36,000 nt of DNA from Flavobacteriales bacterium (GTDB lineage Bacteria; Bacteroidota; Bacteroidia; Flavobacteriales_D; Crocinitomicaceae): positions 1 through 36,000 of the forward strand of contig JABXHO010000049.1 in assembly GCA_013373595.1 (NCBI GenBank). Reading direction: 5' to 3'. Below, one piece after another: positions 9,405-35,298 of the stretch; positions within the stretch are counted from its first letter, which is position 1; each line of letters starts with the position of its first letter. The notes under the pieces are model-generated. The model did not search any database. It worked only from the letters and a program-made list of their open reading frames with translations, and had not been told where the DNA came from. A program made the position numbers and the translations under genes.

Positions 9405-10355
9405 TTAGTAAAAAGTCAATCTCAGTCCTCCCCACAAATGTTCTGTTCCTGCACGAATTTCCTTCGAAACGAAGCCCAAATCTGTAGCGATCGAAAAATG
9501 GGGCGCCGCGAAAACCAACCCAAAATGCATACGCATCACCAATGGATTGATCTCCGAATACCGCAAATAGTAGCCATCCCGATTGATAATTCCGCCCATT
9601 AAACTGGCATCGTAGCCCACCGCAGTGACGTACCCTTGATAGTAGGCGTAATATTCAAATCGGTGATTTTCGGAGGGAGAGAAGGCGTTATTTTTTCGCC
9701 CGATGGAAAGGTTCATTCCGGTGGATAGATTTGTTTGGAAGGTTCCCGCTTTTAACGCGTAAAACCACGAGGCATCAAACCACGACCGTTGAGTTAGAAG
9801 TTCAAAATCCATGCGGAGCAAGTAATTAACAATGGGGGAATTCTTGATCTGATGTTGCCAGCCCAACGGTAAATCGTTACCTGTAATTTTATGGATTTCT
9901 GTTTGGATTTCCTTACCGAGTGCGGCAGGACCAATCATTCCAATGTCTAGGGAAGAGGTCAAGCGTTGATGTTTGTCCGTTTGTTGACTGGTTCTAACGA
10001 TTCCAAATGTAAAAACTCCTGCATACGGTCGATCTCCAATCAAAACACTATCGGATAAAATAGAAGTAGGGGTGCATCCGTGCGTTCTAAATTGAATTCC
10101 GAAGCGATCTCGATCTGAGTTTTTTAATCGAAACAATACTTTATTGAGTGGATTCTTTCTCAGTTTGTACGAGAAAACATCAATTCCGATTCCTTGGGTG
10201 TAGTAGCGATCCGTTCCAACGAACAAATCATTATCGTACGATATCCGCGTAAATGAACTGTCGCGAACATCAAATAGCGTCGAATAGTTATTGATTTCTT
10301 GAGCGACCGAAAATAGACTTGAACACAGCGTAAAAATCAGAAAGAGTAATCGCAT
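9405..10355 (-). CDS. Lipid A deacylase LpxR family outer-membrane protein
   Basis: 316 residues with signal peptide MRLLFLIFTLCSSLFSVAQ and a beta-barrel pattern throughout, ending in an aromatic residue (LRLTFY) as outer-membrane barrels do. Family marks are 'SYDNDLFVGTDRYYTQGIGIDVFS' (~38-61; the N-D pair and downstream T/Y), 'DRPYAGVFTFGIVRTSQ', 'DIGMIGPAALGKEIQTEIHKITGNDLPLGWQHQI' (conserved Q and catalytic H) and a late 'SIGRKNNAF'. In Salmonella LpxR, the same asparagine-aspartate and histidine positions carry out 3'-O-deacylation of lipid A. Members in Bacteroidota are mostly uncharacterised, so the activity is by homology. The gene stands alone. Confidence 0.85.
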   Translation of the reverse strand: MRLLFLIFTLCSSLFSVAQEINNYSTLFDVRDSSFTRISYDNDLFVGTDRYYTQGIGIDVFSYKLRKNPLNKVLFRLKNSDRDRFGIQFRTHGCTPTSILSDSVLIGDRPYAGVFTFGIVRTSQQTDKHQRLTSSLDIGMIGPAALGKEIQTEIHKITGNDLPLGWQHQIKNSPIVNYLLRMDFELLTQRSWFDASWFYALKAGTFQTNLSTGMNLSIGRKNNAFSPSENHRFEYYAYYQGYVTAVGYDASLMGGIINRDGYYLRYSEINPLVMRMHFGLVFAAPHFSIATDLGFVSKEIRAGTEHLWGGLRLTFY

Positions 10356-26151: not shown

Positions 26152-26236
26152 GGAGAATTGCCAGAGTGGTCGAATGGACCGGTCTTGAAAACCGGCGTAC
26201 TTCACGGTACCGGGGGTTCGAATCCCTCATTCTCCG
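26152..26236 (+). tRNA. tRNA-Ser(UGA)
   Basis: 85 bases, class II with a long variable arm. GGAGAAT pairs with ATTCTCC, discriminator G, anticodon loop CTTGAAA with anticodon TGA, T-arm GGGGGTTCGAATCCCTC. CCA is not encoded. It reads UCN codons (mainly UCA/UCG). A terminator follows 4 bases later, so it is a single-gene transcript. Confidence 0.96.
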
Positions 26237-26240
26237 CAAC

Positions 26241-26342: not shown

Positions 26343-27352
26343 TTAGGCATAAATTTGAGTCAAACGGTACAGAAAGTATTCTTTGTTTCTTACGCCTCTA
26401 AATCCGATAGCTATCGGATGAGTTCGGAACGCCTTGATTTTCGCATTGAATGATTACCTGCGGTGCTGCTACGCGGTCGGCAGCAGCATTTGTACTCCTG
26501 TTCTCAAAGTAATTCACTATTCCATCATAATTGATTTTGACAGTATTCATTATTGTAGCAAAACTTTTCAAGCCAGAATCTTCAACATCCTTGTACCAAT
26601 GAGCAAGTTTAGTTAGAGCGAGTCCTTTTCCTTGTTTTGTATTAAAGAACTCTCTTAATTGTTGAGATAGATCGTATGCTTGTTTTATTTCGGGATATTC
26701 TTTGAATAACACTTGTGCTCGTAGCTGTTGTTTGATTGTCCATTTCTCCCGACTTTTATAGAGTAAATAACGACTTCGAGCAAGTAGCTGCCTTCTTGTA
26801 TCCCCTGTCAACAAAGTTTTTGGAGTGTAATCATCACCTTTCTTCTTGGCTGCTAGAATAGCTTCATTTTCTTGATCAATGGCTTCCCAACGATGTTTGA
26901 TTCTGACTTCTTGCAATGCTTCTATAGCAAGCTTTTGTACATGAAAACGATCGATTACTTGTGTGGCTTTTACAAAACAGGTTTTAGCAATCAGCTTCAT
27001 GTTTGGAGCCATATCCAAGGTGATTTCCTTGACCTTTCTTCTGATATGAGAAGGGATTTGCAGTAAACAGTTGATGACCTTATCTGCTTTAGTTCCTTCG
27101 ATAATCGCGACAATGGATCCCGCTCTACCTTTAGCCTGTTTGTTGGTGATCACTGTGTATAATTCTCCTTGAGAAAGAGCTACTTCATCAATAGACAAAC
27201 GCTTTCCGATATTCTTCTGGAATAGAAGCCAGTCCTCAGCGTGATCTAGTTGATCCCAGTCTTTAAAGTCACTTAGATGATTTTTATGTTGTCGTTGGAG
27301 GCGATCTCCTCGGACACCGTACAGGCGACCAATGGTACGAATATCGGTTGCA
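26343..27352 (-). pseudogene. ISAon1-type transposase catalytic part, disrupted
   Basis: Read from just after the first ORF, this frame gives 'NATDIRTIGRLYGVRGDRLQRQHK', then the DDE core: 'KRLSIDEVALSQGELYTVITNKQAKGRAGSIVAII' (first Asp), 'VKEITLDMAPNMKLIAKTCF' (second Asp) and 'VIDRFHVQKLAIEALQEVRIKHRWEA'. The third acidic residue should come in 'NRSTNAAAESFNAKIKAFR'. Here 22 extra bases (within 26451-26478) interrupt it and shift the frame, so the uninterrupted ORF ends wrongly at 26398. In the shifted frame the true end is readable: 'FNAKIKAFR', an 18-base palindrome in frame, then 'FRGVRNKEYFLYRLTQIYA' and stop at 26343-26345. The 5' part overlaps the first ORF in the +1 frame and normally needs frameshifting to be expressed. 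Confidence 0.82.
26402..26419. repeat. 18-bp perfect palindrome inside the transposase gene
   Basis: ATCCGATAGCTATCGGAT is fully self-complementary. It sits between the codons for 'KAFRT' and 'FRGVR' of the decayed transposase, adding five codons that I do not expect in the family. The core CCGATAG-TATCGG also makes the tip of the sucC terminator (7719-7733). Confidence 0.6.
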
Positions 27353-27679
27353 TTAGTATTGACTAATCTCTGTTAAAAAATCAGCAAACTCGTTCACCAT
27401 ACGCGTTCCCTGTCCTATTAACTCCCAGTTCCGTTTAACAACTTGTTTGCTAGTTCTTTCTTGCCAACGACGACGTTTTATATGAAGATAGACTTTCTTT
27501 CCTCGCAGTGGAAAGTCCTGGACTGTAATCTCAGCAAAAAAGCCCTTCGAAACTAACTCAACATCTCTAAATTCTTTGGGATGAATGTTTTTCTCCGAAA
27601 AATAGAAGTGCAGAATCTCCTTTTCTGAACGAGTATCTGTTAAATCAAAGTGTTCCAAGAGAACTTCGGGGAACACCAA
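27353..27679 (-). CDS. ISAon1-type transposase N-terminal-region protein
   Basis: 108 residues from a TTG codon; the frame is open to about 27740 without an ATG, so the start is uncertain. Sequence such as 'LLEHFDLTDTRSEKEILHFYFSEKNIHPKEF', 'DVELVSKGFFAEITVQDFPLRGKKVYLHIKRRRW' and 'LIGQGTRMVNEFADFLTEI' is what I know as the short first ORF of ISAon1-type elements. It ends in TAC-TAA; a +1 slip there joins it to the catalytic frame as '...EISQYNATDIRTIGRLYG', which is the natural fused sequence. It probably carries the DNA-binding part. Confidence 0.72.
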   Translation of the reverse strand: MVFPEVLLEHFDLTDTRSEKEILHFYFSEKNIHPKEFRDVELVSKGFFAEITVQDFPLRGKKVYLHIKRRRWQERTSKQVVKRNWELIGQGTRMVNEFADFLTEISQY

Positions 27680-28318: not shown

Positions 28319-28768
28319 ATGAGCATGCCATCAATTTCTGGTCCTATCACGCTTAACACAGACTTATCGGGAGGTTTAGACACAGGTCTAGACCTAAGCG
28401 GAGGAATAACGACGAACCTCGCAGGGGGATTAAACACAAATCTTAGTGGTGGTGTAGAGACGGACAATGTCTTAACGTTGAAAGGCGATCCAGCAGCACC
28501 CGTTTCTACGGATAGTAAGATGGAGATCCTGAACCTTCCGAGGTTTACATTGACGGACATTAAAGACATGATGAAAGTGCGCGTTCGCATGCCGAATTAT
28601 TCAAATGTGTGTCTGAAAATTCTTGGGGTAGAGTTAATGAGCGTTTCTATGGGCGGTGAAAGTCAGGTGATTACTGAGCCATACGTGCCAACTTCTGTTG
28701 AAACCTGCGAAGTTGACTGCTGCGAACCTGATGTTCGGCCGTTTCCAGGAAAAAAGGTGAAAGAGTAA
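28319..28768 (+). CDS. Small repeat protein, first gene of the isoprenoid operon
   Basis: 149 residues, no signal peptide. Residues 12-50 are four imperfect copies of an 8-10-residue unit, L-S/A-G-G-L/I/V-x-T ('LSGGLDTGLD', 'LSGGITTN', 'LAGGLNTN', 'LSGGVETD'), suggesting a short beta-helical or adhesive segment. The rest, from 'LNLPRFTLTDIKDMMKVRVRMPNYSNVCLKILGVELMSV', looks like one folded domain, with 'GGESQVITEPYVPTSVETCEVDCCEPD' near the end; the CX3CC cluster may bind metal or form disulfides. I do not recognise the family. The next gene begins 76 bases on and the string continues on the same strand to 34174, so it is probably co-transcribed. A structural or targeting role is an inference from its neighbours. 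Confidence 0.72.
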   Translation: MSMPSISGPITLNTDLSGGLDTGLDLSGGITTNLAGGLNTNLSGGVETDNVLTLKGDPAAPVSTDSKMEILNLPRFTLTDIKDMMKVRVRMPNYSNVCLKILGVELMSVSMGGESQVITEPYVPTSVETCEVDCCEPDVRPFPGKKVKE

Positions 28769-28844
28769 CTGCTTGTAACTAAGAAATAAAGGTCTTGGGC
28801 CTATTCGTTCAAGACGAGTCCATTCATTTCTAAAAAATACCTCC

Positions 28845-29621
28845 ATGATTACGATAACGGCAGATGCAAATCAAGAAAAACTGAGTATCCTAGATAAGGA
28901 AATTATTCTCAATGGTCCACCGTCTCATTTACAAGGAAAGATCCAATTTGCGAATCGGCAAGAGGAAACGTTGCGGGTAAAATCAATTGGCTTGACGGAC
29001 AAAGCGACCAAAGGTGAAGCGAAGGAGATCCTTCAATTGTTTTTTCGATTGCGGCCAGGAGAAGAAGCAGTGAAACGGGTTCGTCACAACTTGCCAATCG
29101 CAACTGCACCAGGGACTTATCAAAAGTATATTTCAGTCGGAGATAACAGGCTTCCTGTAAAAGTGATCGTTCAACCCAGCATCAAAATTTCATTGAGTCC
29201 AAGTCGATTTTCGTTTCAAGGGACGGCTCCAGGAACAATTCATAAGATCACGTTAACCCTTGAGAATTTAGGGAATCTGCCGTTTAAAATACCCGCTTTA
29301 AGGCATGCATCCATGTTGGATATGGACCTGATGTGTAGAGCTTTCGGAACTGGATTTAGATCGGTAAAAGATGAAGGCGTTTTAAGTACTTTGGATGTAG
29401 TCACTGAAAACATCAAATCAAATATGGTTGATTGGGTTTCCATCAAGTTAAAGGAGGCAGGTCAAACGATTGAACCAGGGGCGCGTCAATTGTTGAATAT
29501 TCGATTTACGGTTCCCAAAAACGCGGATAAAAATAGAGATTACAGTGGGAATTTCAGATTTTGGAATCGAGAAGTAGCCATTGAGATTAAATCGCATGTA
29601 GTTGAAAATGTAGCACTTTAA
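28845..29621 (+). CDS. Cytosolic protein with two Ig-like modules
   Basis: 258 residues with no signal peptide, membrane segment or cysteine pair for export. It reads as two beta-sandwich modules: residues ~1-112 ('ITITADANQEKLSILDKEI' ... 'LFFRLRPGEEAVKRVRHNLPIATAPGTYQKYISVGD', where 'APGTY' is typical of the G strand turn in such folds) and ~113-258 ('SIKISLSPSRFSFQGTAPGTIHKITLTLENLGNLPFKIP' ... 'IEPGARQLLNIRFTVPKNADKNRDYSGNFRF'). The same 'PG...l.i.f.vP..a....Y' pattern returns at the ends of the next three proteins, so all four probably share one Ig-like domain family. Function unknown. It is 2 bases ahead of the next start. Confidence 0.72.
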   Translation: MITITADANQEKLSILDKEIILNGPPSHLQGKIQFANRQEETLRVKSIGLTDKATKGEAKEILQLFFRLRPGEEAVKRVRHNLPIATAPGTYQKYISVGDNRLPVKVIVQPSIKISLSPSRFSFQGTAPGTIHKITLTLENLGNLPFKIPALRHASMLDMDLMCRAFGTGFRSVKDEGVLSTLDVVTENIKSNMVDWVSIKLKEAGQTIEPGARQLLNIRFTVPKNADKNRDYSGNFRFWNREVAIEIKSHVVENVAL

Positions 29622-29623
29622 GT

Positions 29624-30310
29624 ATGGAAAAAAATAATAACGGAGTATCCGAAATGCAGCGAACACTAACAGATTCGCTTCAACGAATGACGGATTTGTC
29701 AATGGAAACAATGAAGCCGCTGGTAGAGAATATGTTTGGTAGCTTGTCGCAAATGAATAAGCGTATGGTAGATGGTAAGATGCCAACCTTAAACCTGTCA
29801 AATATGACATTTAAAACAAATAGTTGTTATCCACCAGAACAAACATGTCCACCACATTGCATTGCAGCAATTACCAAACATGCGATTGCAGGTGAGCGGA
29901 TTGTCGTTCCTTTTATAGTTAAAAACGAATGTTTTTTAACTAAAACGTATCGAATCGGGGTTAGAGAGTTGAAGGATATTGATGGAAAACTCGCTCCTTC
30001 GGAACCAACGCTGAGCAAGTCAGTAGTAACACTTGAACCGGGGAGGTCGGAGCGCGTTTCGCTTAGTATTGATCTCGTGAGATACAGTAATGGGACAGAA
30101 TACATGACTGAAATTGTATTGCGTGAAAATGAATTCAATCAAAACATTTGTTTCCGATTGATCGTGAATTTCTATGGTGAGATAACAGCAATACCGTTTA
30201 GCGAGTCAAAATATAAGACGAAGTGGCAAGGTTGGCAATCGCATTTTTACTGTGAACCCAAGAAGAAAAAGGGTCTAAATGCGACAGGTTCCGTAATCGC
30301 CATTAAATAA
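29624..30310 (+). CDS. Helical N-terminus plus Cys motif plus Ig-like domain protein
   Basis: 228 residues, no signal peptide. Residues ~1-50 form an amphipathic helix ('EMQRTLTDSLQRMTDLSMETMKPLVENMFGSLSQMNKRM') of the kind found in granule-binding phasins. Residues 68-79 hold C68-x6-C75-x3-C79 with Pro-Pro pairs and a following His ('CPPHC'), a possible metal site. Residues ~83-185 read as an Ig-like module ('AGERIVVPFIVKNECFLTKTYRIGVREL' ... 'VTLEPGRSERVSLSIDLV' ... 'YMTEIVLRENEFNQNICFRLIVNFY'). The end 'WQGWQSHFYCE' followed by a Lys-rich tail may be another contact site. I cannot name the family. Confidence 0.72.
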   Translation: MEKNNNGVSEMQRTLTDSLQRMTDLSMETMKPLVENMFGSLSQMNKRMVDGKMPTLNLSNMTFKTNSCYPPEQTCPPHCIAAITKHAIAGERIVVPFIVKNECFLTKTYRIGVRELKDIDGKLAPSEPTLSKSVVTLEPGRSERVSLSIDLVRYSNGTEYMTEIVLRENEFNQNICFRLIVNFYGEITAIPFSESKYKTKWQGWQSHFYCEPKKKKGLNATGSVIAIK

Positions 30311-30331
30311 AATTCTAAAATTTATCGATCG

Positions 30332-30991
30332 ATGAGTGAAGAGCAAAATGTTTTTACCAAGGATATTGAAGGGATCATCAAAAAAACAATTGAAATTAAC
30401 AAAGCTTATTTTGAAAAAGGTTCAGAGTTGATTCGTCAATTTCAACATTCGGATAAAAAAGTAACGGATTTTAAAGCCCCAGATTCGGGTGCAATCATGG
30501 GAGCACTGTCCACATTTGCCGAATTGAATTTGGAACACTATAAGAATGTATTGGAACTTGGACTTGAGTACACAAAAAAGGCCTTTTCAGGTGCGGAAAC
30601 AGCTGAGGATGCTGAAGAGGTTGTGGCGGAGCCGGAGGACTATGCGGACGAACCTGCGTTTATTCTGAATGGAACTGGAAGCAAAGGTGATACGGTAAAA
30701 TTGCAGTTTCTACTGGACAACATTAAAGAGGAAAAAGTGCTTTGCAAATTCGTCAATTTTGATTTCGTCAATGTGGACAATCCTTCAGAAACGTATGCTC
30801 TAACGACGACATTTGAGCCGCAATCCTTTGAATTGGATATGAACGCATCGCAGCCAGTATTAATAAGTGTGATAATCGATCCAAATGCGAAACTAGGAAC
30901 TTACCAAAGCAAGGTTCAAGTAGAAGGGTTTGAGCCAATCTTTTTCCTTATTCGTGTAACTATTACTAGAAAAACGACCGCCAAAAAATGA
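30332..30991 (+). CDS. Phasin-like N-terminus fused to Ig-like domain
   Basis: 219 residues, no signal peptide. Residues ~5-86 are helical: 'DIEGIIKKTIEINKAYFEKGSELIRQFQ' and 'MGALSTFAELNLEHYKNVLELGLEYTKKAF', the second closely resembling the phasin pattern of hydrophobic residues spaced on a long amphipathic helix. An acidic linker (~87-106, 'AETAEDAEEVVAEPEDYADE') separates this from an Ig-like domain (~107-212, 'GDTVKLQFLLDNIKEEKVLCKFVNFDFVNV' ... 'MNASQPVLISVIIDPNAKLGTYQSKVQVEGF'). Its stop overlaps the next start (ATGA). A role at the surface of a lipid-like inclusion is inference from the helix alone. Confidence 0.75.
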   Translation: MSEEQNVFTKDIEGIIKKTIEINKAYFEKGSELIRQFQHSDKKVTDFKAPDSGAIMGALSTFAELNLEHYKNVLELGLEYTKKAFSGAETAEDAEEVVAEPEDYADEPAFILNGTGSKGDTVKLQFLLDNIKEEKVLCKFVNFDFVNVDNPSETYALTTTFEPQSFELDMNASQPVLISVIIDPNAKLGTYQSKVQVEGFEPIFFLIRVTITRKTTAKK

Positions 30992-31647
30992 CAAATAAGG
31001 AAACGAAGGAAAAAACGGAGGAAATTTTTTCTGGAGCACAGCGACTAATTAGCTCTGCGGTAAATGTTTTGGAAGAAGAAATTGCTGCCGGAATTTTGGC
31101 TGCAAAGAAGATTGAAAAGAAAGTTATTGATGTTGAAGATATTCGAAGCGATCCAAGTGATTTATTAAATAGAATTCGGAGAGACACCCACGAAGCGGTA
31201 GATCTTTTTCTGGATGCTTTTACGGCCATTTCCAAACAAGTGCAGAATCTGGCATCACTCAATACCGACAAAGAGACCAAAAAAGAAGAAGCTCCTGTTT
31301 CGAAAGCAACAGCAAATAATGGTGCCATTGTTTTGGAAGCCGATCATCCCGTTAAACCGGGAGAAACTGTTTCGTTTTGCTTTTCCTTGCTAGAAGATAC
31401 CGAAGAAGTGACCAAATTAGAATTAAAAAAGACAAACCTCATTGGACAGTCCAACCACACGATTCATTCAAGAGCGCTGAAGATTACACCGCGTAAAGTG
31501 CAGCTAATACCAAACGAAGAACAAGAAATTACGATTGATTTAGTCGTACCAAAAAATGCAGTGCCAGATCAGTACAATGCCTTCATTACCTCGGCTTCTC
31601 CACATGCCATTAAAGTTGTTTTACATGTTGAAGTAACAAACGACTGA
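30988..31647 (+). CDS. Helical N-terminus fused to Ig-like domain, second of pair
   Basis: 219 residues, the same length and layout as its neighbour. Residues ~8-90 are helical and highly charged ('LISSAVNVLEEEIAAGILAAKKIEKKVIDVEDIRS', 'RIRRDTHEAVDLFLDAFTAISKQVQNLASL'); a Lys/Glu linker follows, then an Ig-like domain (~112-215, 'HPVKPGETVSFCFSLLEDTEEVTKLELKKTNLIG' ... 'LIPNEEQEITIDLVVPKNAVPDQYNAFITSASPHAIKVVLHVEV'). Translationally coupled on both sides: ATGA with the gene before, TGATG with the polyprenyl synthase after. Such tight coupling suggests defined stoichiometry with the synthase. Family unrecognised. Confidence 0.75.
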   Translation: MTNKETKEKTEEIFSGAQRLISSAVNVLEEEIAAGILAAKKIEKKVIDVEDIRSDPSDLLNRIRRDTHEAVDLFLDAFTAISKQVQNLASLNTDKETKKEEAPVSKATANNGAIVLEADHPVKPGETVSFCFSLLEDTEEVTKLELKKTNLIGQSNHTIHSRALKITPRKVQLIPNEEQEITIDLVVPKNAVPDQYNAFITSASPHAIKVVLHVEVTND

Positions 31648-32675
31648 TGAGTAATTCCTTGATGAAATCTATGCTAGCCGAATATGGAGCAGCGACATTG
31701 GAAGGAATCAATAAGTACATTCCAGATAAGGAACCACGGAAATACTTATACGATTTGGTGGCCGATTATCCGAATCGAGGAGGTAAAGGATTTAGACCTG
31801 GTTTGTGTATCGCTGCCTGTAAAGCTTACGGCGGAAAACAAAGTGATGCAATGGATTCTGCAATTTGCTTAGAATTATTACACAATGCCTTTTTAGTGCA
31901 TGATGATATTGAGGATGAAAGCTTTTTCAGAAGAAATAAACCAACGCTTCACGAGGCGAATAATAGTGCCATCGCAATAAATGTAGGTGATGCTATGCAG
32001 GTATTGAGTCTTTCCCCTCTGTATAGAAACCGAGAAATTTTAGGCGATCGCGTAGCAACAAAAGTTTATTTGGAAGTACAGCGGATGATTCTTGAATCGG
32101 TTGAAGGGCAAGCGATGGAATTAGGCTGGAGAAAAGACAATATGTGTGACCTCAAAGAAGCAGACTACCTGCGGATGATTCTAAAAAAAACCTGTTGGTA
32201 TACGTGTATGCAACCACTCAGAATTGGAGCTATCATTGGAACTAGAGGGCAAATTGATCCCGATACTTTTGACAGATTGGGTTATTTCATGGGAACTTCT
32301 TTTCAAATTCAAGATGACATCTTGAATTTGGTTGGGGAGGAAGATAAATATGGAAAAGAGGTTTGTGGCGATATCATAGAAGGAAAAAGAACCTTAATGC
32401 TGATTCATTTACTGGGAAATTGCAAACCTGCAGAATTTCGAGATGTACGCTCTTTTTTAGCGAACCCAATTAAAGATCGCTCGATTGAAGATGCACGGTC
32501 TATTCTGGAACTAATGCACCAATATGATTCGATCGAACAAGCCAAAAAAACAGCGCAATATTTAGCAGGCGGCGCCTTGAAAGAATTCTACAGCATCTTT
32601 TCCAAATGCCATGAAACCCAAGATAAAGCTCTGATTGAAAATATCATTTTGTACATGATTAACCGAGAATACTGA
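31647..32675 (+). CDS. Polyprenyl diphosphate synthase (trans-isoprenyl type)
   Basis: 342 residues, all-helical fold. First Asp-rich motif D86-D87-I-E-D90 in 'LVHDDIEDESFFRRNKPTLH'; the following R95-R96 bind pyrophosphate. Second motif D223-D224-I-L-N227 in 'FQIQDDILNLVGEEDKYGKEV', with Asn at the last position. The usual 'GGKRxRP' is 'GGKGFRP' (45-51). It condenses allylic diphosphates with isopentenyl diphosphate; the residue five before the first motif is Ala81 (small) but residue four before is Phe82, so product length (C20 or longer) cannot be settled. The next gene, a geranylgeranyl-reductase relative 5 bases downstream, suggests a C20-type or longer product that is then saturated. 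This motif set recalls polyprenyl synthases found as cargo of family 2 encapsulins. Confidence 0.9.
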   Translation: MSNSLMKSMLAEYGAATLEGINKYIPDKEPRKYLYDLVADYPNRGGKGFRPGLCIAACKAYGGKQSDAMDSAICLELLHNAFLVHDDIEDESFFRRNKPTLHEANNSAIAINVGDAMQVLSLSPLYRNREILGDRVATKVYLEVQRMILESVEGQAMELGWRKDNMCDLKEADYLRMILKKTCWYTCMQPLRIGAIIGTRGQIDPDTFDRLGYFMGTSFQIQDDILNLVGEEDKYGKEVCGDIIEGKRTLMLIHLLGNCKPAEFRDVRSFLANPIKDRSIEDARSILELMHQYDSIEQAKKTAQYLAGGALKEFYSIFSKCHETQDKALIENIILYMINREY

Positions 32676-32680
32676 GTAAT

Positions 32681-34174
32681 ATGATACGTGTAACACCGAA
32701 AATAAAGTACGATTGTGATGTCATGATTGTTGGAGCAGGACCGGCAGGAAGTGGTCTAGCTTTTCATTTAGCTTCTAAGGGAATCAAGGTGACCGTGGTT
32801 GAATCAGCTGTTTTTCCAAGGGACAAAATTTGTGGTGACGGGGTGAGTCCTATTGCATTGGCGGAGCTAGATAAAATGGGGATTACACACACAAAAGAGT
32901 TTGATCAAACAAATGAAATTAATAAAGTCGGGCTCTTTCTAAAAGACGACAAAGTCTTTATTGATCTGTCCAAACCTGATCATTTGCCCTATCACGCACG
33001 AATTATCCCGCGGATAGAATTGGACAATTGGATTTACACAGCAGCTAAAAATGCAGGTGCGACGTACATCGAAGGCACTTCTGTTACTGAATATTTAAGT
33101 TCTGAAAATGGAGTAGTGGTGCATCTGAAATCTGGAGAGAATAAGTCTACCCTAAAAACAAAATTGCTCGTTGGCGCTGATGGAGGGAACTCCACAATTG
33201 CAAGACAATTGCACGGACGTAAACCGAATGATGAGTTCCAACTTTTAGGATTACGCGCATACTATGACAATGTGAATGGTCCAAATGATCGGGTTGATAT
33301 CTATTTTAATGAAGACGGATTTCCAGGCATCTTTTGGATGTTCCCCGTGGGAGAAAAAGGGGCGAATGTTGGAATTGCGATGATTTCAAAAACGTTCCCC
33401 TCAAAGCCGGATCACGTAAAAAAGATCTTATTGGCTCATATAGAAAATAATAAGGATATCAAAGAGCGAATCGGAGAGGGAGAACTTTCTGATAAAATTA
33501 GAGGTTGGCCGATTACCTTTTTTAATCCCAAGCAAAAATTAAGCGACAACCGAATCATACTGATTGGTGAAGCGGCTGGACTCATTAATCCATTGAGTGG
33601 CGACGGTATTCAATACGCCTTATTGAGTGCGCGCTGGGCTTCGGAAACGATTGAAGAATGCGTGAAGGAGAATCGTTTTTCTGCACAAGACTTGAATAAG
33701 TTTACACTAAAAGTAAAGGAAGAAGTAGCGTATGATTTTTCCTTATCCAATTTATTGGTTCAGTTTCCACGCAATAAAACCTTTACCAAAATGTGGATTA
33801 AAATCCTGACTGTCATGATTGCTAAGGCGAAGGAAGATAAAGAATATGCCGATACGATCGCTGGAATTTTTGAAGGAACGTATCCTTCCTATCATGCGCT
33901 AAACCTTTCGTTTATTCTTAAAACCCTAAAGCAAGGTGGTGTCGAGTTGTCGAATTCTTTTCAAGAGCATTTAACTGATCCCCAAAAATCGATCACGACA
34001 GGAGCGGAGATGATGGAGTTATTCACGAAAATCATGTCCGAAGTAAAAGACAATCCAAAGCAGCATTTAAAATGGATTGCAGATACCGTGTTAAAAACGG
34101 GAACTGTCGCCAAACATGTTGTTAAAACGGTTGATCTGGAAAGCCTGAGCGGAGTTTTTCGTACTGAAAAATAA
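32681..34174 (+). CDS. Geranylgeranyl reductase family FAD-dependent oxidoreductase
   Basis: 497 residues. FAD binding: 'CDVMIVGAGPAGSGLAFHLASKGIKVTVVES' with GxGxxG at 18-23 and the ribose-binding Glu41; 'PRDKICGDGVSPIAL' (46-60) is the family's CGDG motif; 'LLVGADGGNSTIARQL' and 'IILIGEAAGLINPLSGDGIQYALLSARWASE' complete the p-hydroxybenzoate-hydroxylase-type fold. 'WMFPVGEKGANVGIAMIS' is the usual substrate-domain strand. Members reduce double bonds of geranylgeranyl chains in chlorophyll, tocopherol or archaeal lipids. The C-terminal ~100 residues ('LSNSFQEHLTDPQKSITTGAEMMELFTKIMSEVKDNPKQHLKWIADTV') are an extra helical tail absent from the short archaeal forms. Last gene of the operon. 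Confidence 0.9.
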   Translation: MIRVTPKIKYDCDVMIVGAGPAGSGLAFHLASKGIKVTVVESAVFPRDKICGDGVSPIALAELDKMGITHTKEFDQTNEINKVGLFLKDDKVFIDLSKPDHLPYHARIIPRIELDNWIYTAAKNAGATYIEGTSVTEYLSSENGVVVHLKSGENKSTLKTKLLVGADGGNSTIARQLHGRKPNDEFQLLGLRAYYDNVNGPNDRVDIYFNEDGFPGIFWMFPVGEKGANVGIAMISKTFPSKPDHVKKILLAHIENNKDIKERIGEGELSDKIRGWPITFFNPKQKLSDNRIILIGEAAGLINPLSGDGIQYALLSARWASETIEECVKENRFSAQDLNKFTLKVKEEVAYDFSLSNLLVQFPRNKTFTKMWIKILTVMIAKAKEDKEYADTIAGIFEGTYPSYHALNLSFILKTLKQGGVELSNSFQEHLTDPQKSITTGAEMMELFTKIMSEVKDNPKQHLKWIADTVLKTGTVAKHVVKTVDLESLSGVFRTEK

Positions 34175-34376: not shown

Positions 34377-34817
34377 TTGCTTGGTGATGGAACACCTACT
34401 GTGGCAGAGCACAATTTGGCGTCAAACATAAGTACAAAGGTAGTACCGAGATTATTCAGGGAGTTACTCGGATTTGAAGAAGTTGATATGAGGTATTACT
34501 TAACAGCTTCCGATAGAAACTCTATGAGTGCAACTAGTATATTAACAGGCTTGCAAGCAAATGTTGATAATGGCTATTCAGTGATACTTGATGTAAAATC
34601 CGAGATGTTCGGGATTCCAAATGGCGGACACGGCGTAACATTCCTTGGGAATTACAGAGTGGAGAGTACTGGTGATGTATCTTTTGATGTGCAATCATGG
34701 GGCGAAGTTATGCCTTTAACAATGAGTGAAGATGAATTTGAGAAAAACTATAATGGCGCTGTTTGGGGGCGAAGTACCAATGATGGTATTAAAAATGGGG
34801 CTGATGCTGGTAATTAA
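34377..34817 (+). pseudogene. 5'-truncated papain/C39-like domain remnant
   Basis: 146 codons from a TTG; an in-frame stop lies 12 bases upstream and no ATG exists before codon ~38, so the N-terminus is missing. The readable part resembles the C-terminal half of papain-like folds: 'NGYSVILDVKSEMFGIPNGGHGVTFLGNY' (candidate catalytic His in GGHGV) and 'VSFDVQSWGEVMPLTMSEDEFEKNYNGAVWG'. There is not a single cysteine, so the nucleophile is lost with the N-terminus. Such domains often form the C-terminal tip of polymorphic toxins, and the lipoprotein overlapping its 3' end could be its immunity partner. Both readings are inference. Composition is AT-rich compared with the housekeeping half of the window. 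Confidence 0.6.
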
Positions 34818-35298
34818 TCTAAGCTGTAATTCTGGGCATGTCACCAAAGCTAGAAGTGTTAGTAAAGCTAGAAGTGTTAGTAAATCGGATGTTAATTATG
34901 AATTTGATTCCGAAATAGACAGCAATATTATATTAACTAATACTGCGATAATTCGGCTAAAGGGATTTATGGAAAGTGATAATATTGAACTTTTAGAATA
35001 TGAAAATTCTAAACAAAAATCAAAGAATGTAACTTTATCAGAAAGATCAAATTCCGATGAAGGGGTAAGAGAGTTTTCGATTTACACTACACTAGATCGT
35101 TCAATTAGTTATGTTAAATTTACTTTTCAAAATGGCGATACCGTTTTTTCGAGAAAATTCACCGATTTAAAATTCGAAATAAAACCAGTTTATCCCTATG
35201 GTAACTTTCTTTTAAATTTGAAAAGTTATACCTATAACGGTAACACCCTGCTAAGTGATCCTTTTTTCGCTAATCCTGTATTTCAAATTATTAGGTAG
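34780..35298 (+). CDS. Putative small lipoprotein (possible immunity protein)
   Basis: 172 residues from the ATG-ATG at 34780. 'MMVLKMGLMLVINLSCNSG' reads as a short lipoprotein signal peptide with the lipobox L-x-x-C ending at Cys16. A GTG at 34726 would give 18 more residues, but these run inside the preceding frame and would bury the signal. After the cysteine is an exact duplication, ARSVSK twice, from an 18-base tandem repeat (34849-34884). The remainder is beta-rich with Asn/Ser-rich charged patches ('SYVKFTFQNGDTVFSRKFTDLKFEIKP'). It overlaps the 3' end of the papain-like remnant by 38 bases in another frame. I do not recognise a family. Confidence 0.6.
   Translation: MMVLKMGLMLVINLSCNSGHVTKARSVSKARSVSKSDVNYEFDSEIDSNIILTNTAIIRLKGFMESDNIELLEYENSKQKSKNVTLSERSNSDEGVREFSIYTTLDRSISYVKFTFQNGDTVFSRKFTDLKFEIKPVYPYGNFLLNLKSYTYNGNTLLSDPFFANPVFQIIR
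34849..34884 (+). repeat. Perfect 18-bp tandem duplication
   Basis: GCTAGAAGTGTTAGTAAA occurs twice head to tail with no mismatch, in frame, just after the lipobox cysteine. Being perfect, it is likely recent and may vary in copy number. Confidence 0.85.

Follow-up and report, generated by a model that had tools for sequence, protein, structure and literature searches.

The seven-gene operon

The stretch of DNA analysed here, referred to as the window, comprises 36,000 nucleotides from a Flavobacteriales bacterium (assembly GCA_013373595.1, contig JABXHO010000049.1, positions 1 to 36,000). It holds an operon of seven open reading frames (ORFs), lying one behind another on the + strand between 28319 and 34174, that encode five unassigned proteins, here named P1 to P5, followed by a prenyl diphosphate synthase (PPS) and a geranylgeranyl-reductase-family flavoprotein (GGR). 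A first interpretation made without database searches, the sequence-only reading, had placed these ORFs as they stand, and both enzyme assignments pass curated cut-offs, with none reached by P1–P5 in Pfam or NCBIfam. Its description of one-base overlaps and a 5-base gap holds for the P5–PPS overlap (1 base) and the PPS–GGR gap, and does not fit the remaining junctions, with 76 bases between P1 and P2, 2 between P2 and P3, 21 between P3 and P4, and a 4-base overlap of P4 and P5.

The seven genes are a real, selected unit. Their complete order, which the sequence-only reading had proposed to look for elsewhere, is found again in four other genomes (loci L014, L015, L047 and L108). L108, in genome G658, is the nearest copy, with a PPS 88% and a GGR 83% identical to those of the window; comparison of the 36-kb window with a 20-kb stretch of G658 gives a single DNA match at E ≤ 1e-5, which spans 28424–34142 and stops at the operon edges. 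Ratios of nonsynonymous to synonymous substitution rates (dN/dS) against L108 are 0.14 for P1, 0.12 for P2, 0.15 for P3, 0.11 for P4, 0.10 for P5, 0.03 for PPS and 0.07 for GGR, values that are rough at a dS of 1.4–2.3 and that speak for purifying selection on all seven genes. In L047 (Dyadobacter, genome G795, C11:620635–621658), the PPS lies in two overlapping frames, reflecting decay or a sequencing error.

In P1 (28319..28768, + strand, 149 residues), the N-terminus is repetitive, with repeats of an [LI]xTxLxGG type, and a segment near LGVEL..GESQVITEPY is conserved at the C-terminus; homologues occur in eight loci, and the conserved motif was also found in L108, L116 and L121–L124. P2 (28845..29621, +, 258 residues) probably comprises two Ig-like domains; hidden Markov model homologues are present in Bacteroidota, Rhodobacterales and Actinomycetota, and a search of PDB sequences gave two weak matches (best E 0.0029). 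P3 (29624..30310, +, 228 residues) combines a helical N-terminus, a Cys-rich middle and a probable Ig-like C-terminal part, with a conserved HFYC motif and no match among PDB sequences. P4 (30332..30991, +, 219 residues) has a helical N-terminus, an Ig-like domain and a sub-threshold match to Phasin_2, and P5 (30988..31647, +, 219 residues) consists of a helical hairpin (residues 11–47 and 56–92) and an Ig-like, ASH/PapD-like domain at about residues 106–216. No transmembrane- or signal-like stretch was found in P1–P5 by a crude hydropathy test (highest 19-residue Kyte–Doolittle mean 1.29, in P5), in agreement with the earlier claim that signal peptides are absent. For P1–P5 and PPS, PADLOC gave nothing at E ≤ 0.01; a role in anti-phage defence was rejected, the one weak match, to GGR, having an E of 0.0045 over 35 residues.

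The Ig part of P5 is well modelled by AlphaFold 2 (AF2), with a block-mean predicted local distance difference test (pLDDT) score of 81–97 from residue 111 onward, and its fold is nearest to those of GH123 N-terminal domains and of cytosolic ASH/PapD/MSP domains, including VAP and OCRL. Profile comparison joins P4 and P5 closely (96.9%, E 1.5e-10) and gives weak matches for P5–P2 (56.8%), P5–P3 (23.7%) and P4–P3 (76.7%); Pfam adds weak fn3_5 (Ig-like) matches for P2 and P5. As P2 and P3 match weakly by profile, the proposal of the sequence-only reading that four of the proteins share one Ig fold is likely, not proven. Among relatives of P5, whose sequences were read by eye, the helical part occurs alone in Micromonospora and Kitasatospora, and mainly the Ig part in Ruegeria.

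PPS (31647..32675, +) is a trans-prenyl diphosphate synthase (PF00348, 190.7 bits against a cut-off of 27). Its closest solved relative is the geranylgeranyl diphosphate (GGPP) synthase of Thermus thermophilus (PDB entry 1wmw, E 1.1e-47), with which it has in common the DDxxD and second DDxLNL motifs and, by eye, about a third of the residues in the aligned part. An active enzyme is expected, as the DDxLNL motif is that of 1wmw. The nearest solved relatives are GGPP synthases; the scores against NCBIfam GGPP_syn (156.6 bits, cut-off 500) and against the Family 2 encapsulin cargo model NF041169 (155.4, cut-off 450) fall short. GGR (32681..34174, +) is the sole protein of the genome above the TIGR02032 cut-off (200.7 bits against 158.8), and lies far below those for digeranylgeranylglycerophospholipid (DGGGP) reductase (114.1 against 580 bits) and menaquinone reductase MenJ (126.9 against 700 bits).

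A synthase clade that keeps a P5-like partner

A scan for PPS covered 84,980 species genomes, and the clade counts rest on the best 80 of 578 confirmed matches; the enzyme is rare, being present at E ≤ 1e-60 in 3 of 395 Bacteroidota genomes, its own included. In a midpoint-rooted tree of 87 PPS (85 from loci, that of the window included, and the two further PPS of the same genome), the window PPS falls in a clade of 52 rows (support 100/99) made up of clade I (37 rows, 98/99) and clade II (15 rows, 99/98). Judged by record titles, this clade extends over seven phyla (Bacteroidota, Pseudomonadota, Myxococcota, Actinomycetota, Cyanobacteriota, Thermodesulfobacteriota and Bacillota), and the remaining 33 locus rows, from Archaea, Poribacteria, Deinococcota and similar groups, form the outgroup. 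All 52 clade rows keep the DDxxD motif, and 38 match the second motif, DDxxN, the other 14 not being matched by the pattern used. In high-GC loci the genes were called heuristically, and contig ends truncate several loci (L024, L038, L045, L060, L065, L081 and others).

Profile models were used for P2–P5 and for the related clusters c11 and c46, with a match defined as E < 1e-3 in the locus. A P5-like protein, with a helical hairpin and/or an Ig domain, is present in 37 of 37 clade I rows, within 200 bases of PPS in 34 and at 2.2, 4.3 and 6.6 kb in the others, and in none of the 33 outgroup loci. Of these 37 rows, 24 belong to loci that also contributed to the P5, c11 and c46 models, and the remaining 13 were found independently. 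The PPS clade, which is distinct and has spread horizontally, keeps a P5-like partner beside the synthase.

The separation of the window PPS from the two other PPS of its genome led us to reject a housekeeping enzyme, the exact place of the two paralogues being unsure owing to long branches. A related alternative is that the two enzymes belong to a standard route to archaeal-type ether lipids or to quinone or carotenoid tails, with P1–P5 as neighbours that have a task of their own. The genome does hold a PcrB/GGGPS gene, as an archaeal-type ether-lipid pathway requires (108.3 bits, contig C174), and such lipids have been proposed for FCB-group bacteria (PMC7852524). However, PcrB lies on another contig than the operon, GGR scores far below the cut-offs for the DGGGP-lipid and MenJ reductases, two other PPS are at hand, and the window PPS has its own clade, to which P5 keeps; we consider this alternative improbable.

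Other clade members show further arrangements. A family 1 encapsulin (PF04454, above cut-off) is encoded in six related loci (L007, L031, L034, L037, L046 and L054), which also carry a clade I PPS, a DUF3237 protein, an FAD amine-oxidase-like protein and a cyclase-AAA-TPR protein; in L046 (8042–11005), a single ORF of 987 residues is a natural fusion of the FAD amine-oxidase-like protein and PPS. Three of the five separate FAD proteins of these loci end, after a linker, in a TQK[GA] tail resembling a cargo tag, and two do not, which gives a hint only. The presence of a clade PPS beside a true shell protein supports a structural role of P1–P5 by analogy only. The genome of the window itself has no PF04454 match, and none of the seven proteins is a family 2 shell protein, the genome itself not having been searched for that family.

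The adenylate/guanylate-cyclase-AAA-TPR protein (k4) occurs in 17 clade I loci outside the window, and would suit a self-assembling particle or signalling device that stores no lipid and in which the product of PPS acts as signal or ligand. The window operon has no k4-type gene, and nothing else there suggests signalling, which makes this explanation hardly more than a slim chance. As to the other neighbours, the type B loci L016, L017, L019 and L020 add a large protein, c52 (1,167–1,252 residues; PKD domains and a hydrophobic stretch in that of L016), and a small one, c51, beside P5–PPS, and L016, L017 and L020 encode a small protein, k87, with P1-like features by eye. The FAD amine-oxidase-like protein c3 is found in 18 clade I loci (L021–L030, L032, L033, L039, L042, L045, L053, L056 and L081), often together with c8 (saccharopine-dehydrogenase-like) and c40 (ADC-like) proteins.

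The exchangeable P1–P4 set and its probable mobility

The P1–P4 set accompanies the PPS clade in Bacteroidota, Alphaproteobacteria and Actinomycetota. P1 and P2 stand beside a clade II PPS in genome G064 (L009), in two Roseobacter loci (L059 and L062), in Cellulomonas (L057) and in another actinobacterium (L121). P3 is called in L009 and, weakly, in L059 (E 0.0079) and L062 (E 0.0012); it was not called in L057 or L121, where a gap of fitting size is present. P4 in L059, L062, L057 and L121 was assigned by position, helix-plus-Ig make-up, alignment and mutual BLAST, being 18–19% identical to window P4, and the Roseobacter proteins were missed by the P4 model. Placed on the PPS tree, the P1–P2 set requires at least three changes (fewest changes). 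P1–P4 are an exchangeable set that has been added to the clade several times, and P5 is what stays with PPS.

In the clade II loci with P1–P2, the place of GGR is taken by a methyltransferase and the cluster proteins c7 and c50/c47. A label of AttH/CrtC-like for c7 is unproven: the two relatives scanned matched no Pfam family, and against PDB one relative reached only E 0.02 and another had no match. The c47 protein bears a sub-threshold likeness to SCP2 (19.2 bits, cut-off 21.3), and together with the proximity of the P5 Ig domain to cytosolic ASH/PapD/MSP-type domains, VAP and OCRL among them, this would agree with a soluble lipid-carrier complex in place of a granule, the Ig and helical proteins carrying isoprenoids one molecule at a time between enzymes and membrane. 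These folds are generic, however, and five proteins, one of them repetitive (P1), resemble an assembly more; we regard a carrier of this kind as unlikely.

Seven loci were first reached through P2 or P3, of which three (G064, G658 and G1710) hold a clade PPS. In the genomes of the other four (G878, G1763, G1559 and G1827), the best PPS match scores 107–124 bits, against 380–575 bits for complete clade members. Their P1–P2–P3 genes adjoin genes resembling a thioesterase and a ketosynthase by eye (G878, L116), lie near DUF362 proteins (G1763, L122, and G1559, L123, the latter's below cut-off), or lie near an epimerase and a weak polyketide-cyclase-type protein (G1827, L124). A general lipid-holding module is suggested by the use of the same set with a methyltransferase and c7/c50, with a polyketide synthase-like gene and with DUF362 proteins. 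These loci also bear on the possibility that prenyl groups from PPS and GGR are attached to the structural proteins, such as the Cys-rich P3, as a lipid modification or anchor. The conserved Cys motifs of P3 and the constancy of PPS beside P1–P4, while accessory enzymes change, would fit such a role; no protein prenyltransferase was seen in the operon, and P1–P3 occur without a clade PPS, and we consider lipidation very improbable.

Within the order, P3 has three carriers in 399 genomes (its own, G658 and G064). Among 99 relatives, the sole real match beyond its own genome is in G064, of another family of the order, and none was found in the 33 same-genus genomes searched; a match in G068 was dismissed, being 34 residues long with two stops. 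P2 was found in 2 of 295 genomes of the family of the Roseobacter carrier, one being the carrier, in 1 of 385 of its class (the carrier), and with five matches, one of them the carrier, in 386 genomes of the actinobacterial phylum. Rare presence, absence from close kin and unrelated flanks indicate horizontal transfer of the block. A tblastn search of 72,556 plasmid records matched neither window P1 nor the Roseobacter P1 and P4, and of four stretches matching a P2 pattern in 2.9 million viral contigs, none encodes a relative.

The host genome is 4.69 Mb in size and of Bacteroidota type, as its gene content and its neighbours in the tree indicate. Upstream of the operon lie the remains of an ISL3-type transposase, split into two ORFs (26398..27679, − strand; PF01610 157.5 bits, with a zinc-ribbon ORF below cut-off at 22.3 bits), and beside them a tRNA-Ser gene (26152–26237). 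Directly downstream, 34377–35298 holds two ORFs without a Pfam family, possibly remnants, and a homologue of the outer-membrane protein LpxR (191.5 bits) is encoded at 9405–10355.

A proposed function and its relation to known systems

We tentatively propose, as a reading that falls somewhat short of an even chance, that the operon is a protein-organized isoprenoid system in which P1–P4 hold a hydrophobic product and P5 is the partner of PPS. PPS would make a prenyl diphosphate in the C20 range, which GGR would saturate in the window operon; P5 would bind or dock the synthase, and P1–P4 would assemble into a coat, scaffold or carrier holding the product, which would remain part of the assembly, forming its coat or its core or being carried as lipid. 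The encapsulin loci would then have solved the task in parallel, with enzymes of that clade. A wider version, which we hold to be doubtful, is that P1–P4 are the building blocks of a mobile, previously undescribed bacterial inclusion or organelle loaded with varied hydrophobic products (isoprenoids here, polyketides or other lipids elsewhere), for which P5 is a PPS-docking adaptor. The sequence-only reading had likewise supposed that structural proteins coat, anchor or encapsulate the enzymes or their product, and the P5 partner rule, the joining of P1–P2 to the clade at least three times, the encapsulin loci, the lack of obvious export signals in the window proteins and a PPS distinct from the ordinary enzymes of the genome speak for it, so that it is supported in part.

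Several observations weigh against this proposal. In four of the seven loci first found by way of P2 or P3, P1–P3 stand without a clade PPS, and the set therefore has no exclusive tie to prenyl lipid; upstream genes occurring without the enzymes, which the sequence-only reading had named as a refuting observation, are in part what is seen. P2 is absent from four of nine carrier genomes searched (G260, G799, G800 and G801, the genomes of L095, Chitinophaga L016, Ruegeria L034 and Marinilabilia L019), and many clade members have PPS and P5 without P1–P4 in the fetched flanks. GGR adjoins a clade PPS only in the Bacteroidota type A and type B maps. In clade II, 4 of 15 rows have a P5-like match, one within 200 bases, and three of the four are P2 or P4 of the P1–P4 set. 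P1 could not be modelled (AF2 pLDDT 41), the P5 model is of low confidence in its helices (block pLDDT 47–72), and Ig and hairpin folds are common. The suggested binding, assembly, granule and product are all drawn from sequence and genome context.

Membership of the phasins, which the sequence-only reading had suggested through phasin-like helices, was also rejected: the likeness comes down to the Phasin_2 match of P4 (14.5 bits, cut-off 24.9), and searches of the window proteins and of 36 and 17 relatives in Pfam and NCBIfam gave sub-threshold matches only, with two of the 36 and one of the 17 matching Phasin_2 at E ≤ 0.5 and none of the 17 matching a phasin model in NCBIfam.

Were the proposal true, the operon would be a place to seek hitherto unknown saturated isoprenoids and could serve terpene engineering as a ready scaffold. 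A PPS clade that keeps a structural partner over seven phyla is, even if there is no granule, an unexplained and directly testable rule. Searches of the open-licence PMC literature gave no description of the seven-gene operon.

Phasin-coated polyester granules nevertheless appear to offer a likeness, in that cytosolic proteins of small size, their N-termini helical and in part amphipathic, stand beside the synthase of a hydrophobic product; unlike in that system, phasin scores are below cut-off, Ig domains are attached and no polyester synthase is among the seven genes. In the Thermus thermophilus GGPP synthase (1wmw), the DDxxD and DDxLNL motifs of PPS recur, and we know of no structural-protein operon around that enzyme. 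The P5 Ig domain is of like fold to the cytosolic ASH/PapD-like/MSP domains of CEP192, HYDIN, VAP and OCRL. Polyprenyl transferases are cargo of Family 2B encapsulins, according to PMC8346489, and the operon resembles these systems in grouping a prenyl synthase with putative compartment genes, with a family 1 encapsulin in related clade loci; the six encapsulin clusters may already be among the 'Minor' Family 1 operons of that source. In contrast to encapsulin systems, P1–P5 are not encapsulins, the genome has no family 1 encapsulin and PPS is below the NF041169 cut-off. As the module fails the tests for phasins, encapsulins and the other families tried, we regard it as probably new in kind: a helix-plus-Ig compartment or carrier moved between phyla with varied lipid enzymes would, if the proposal holds, form a class beside phasin granules, encapsulins and microcompartments.

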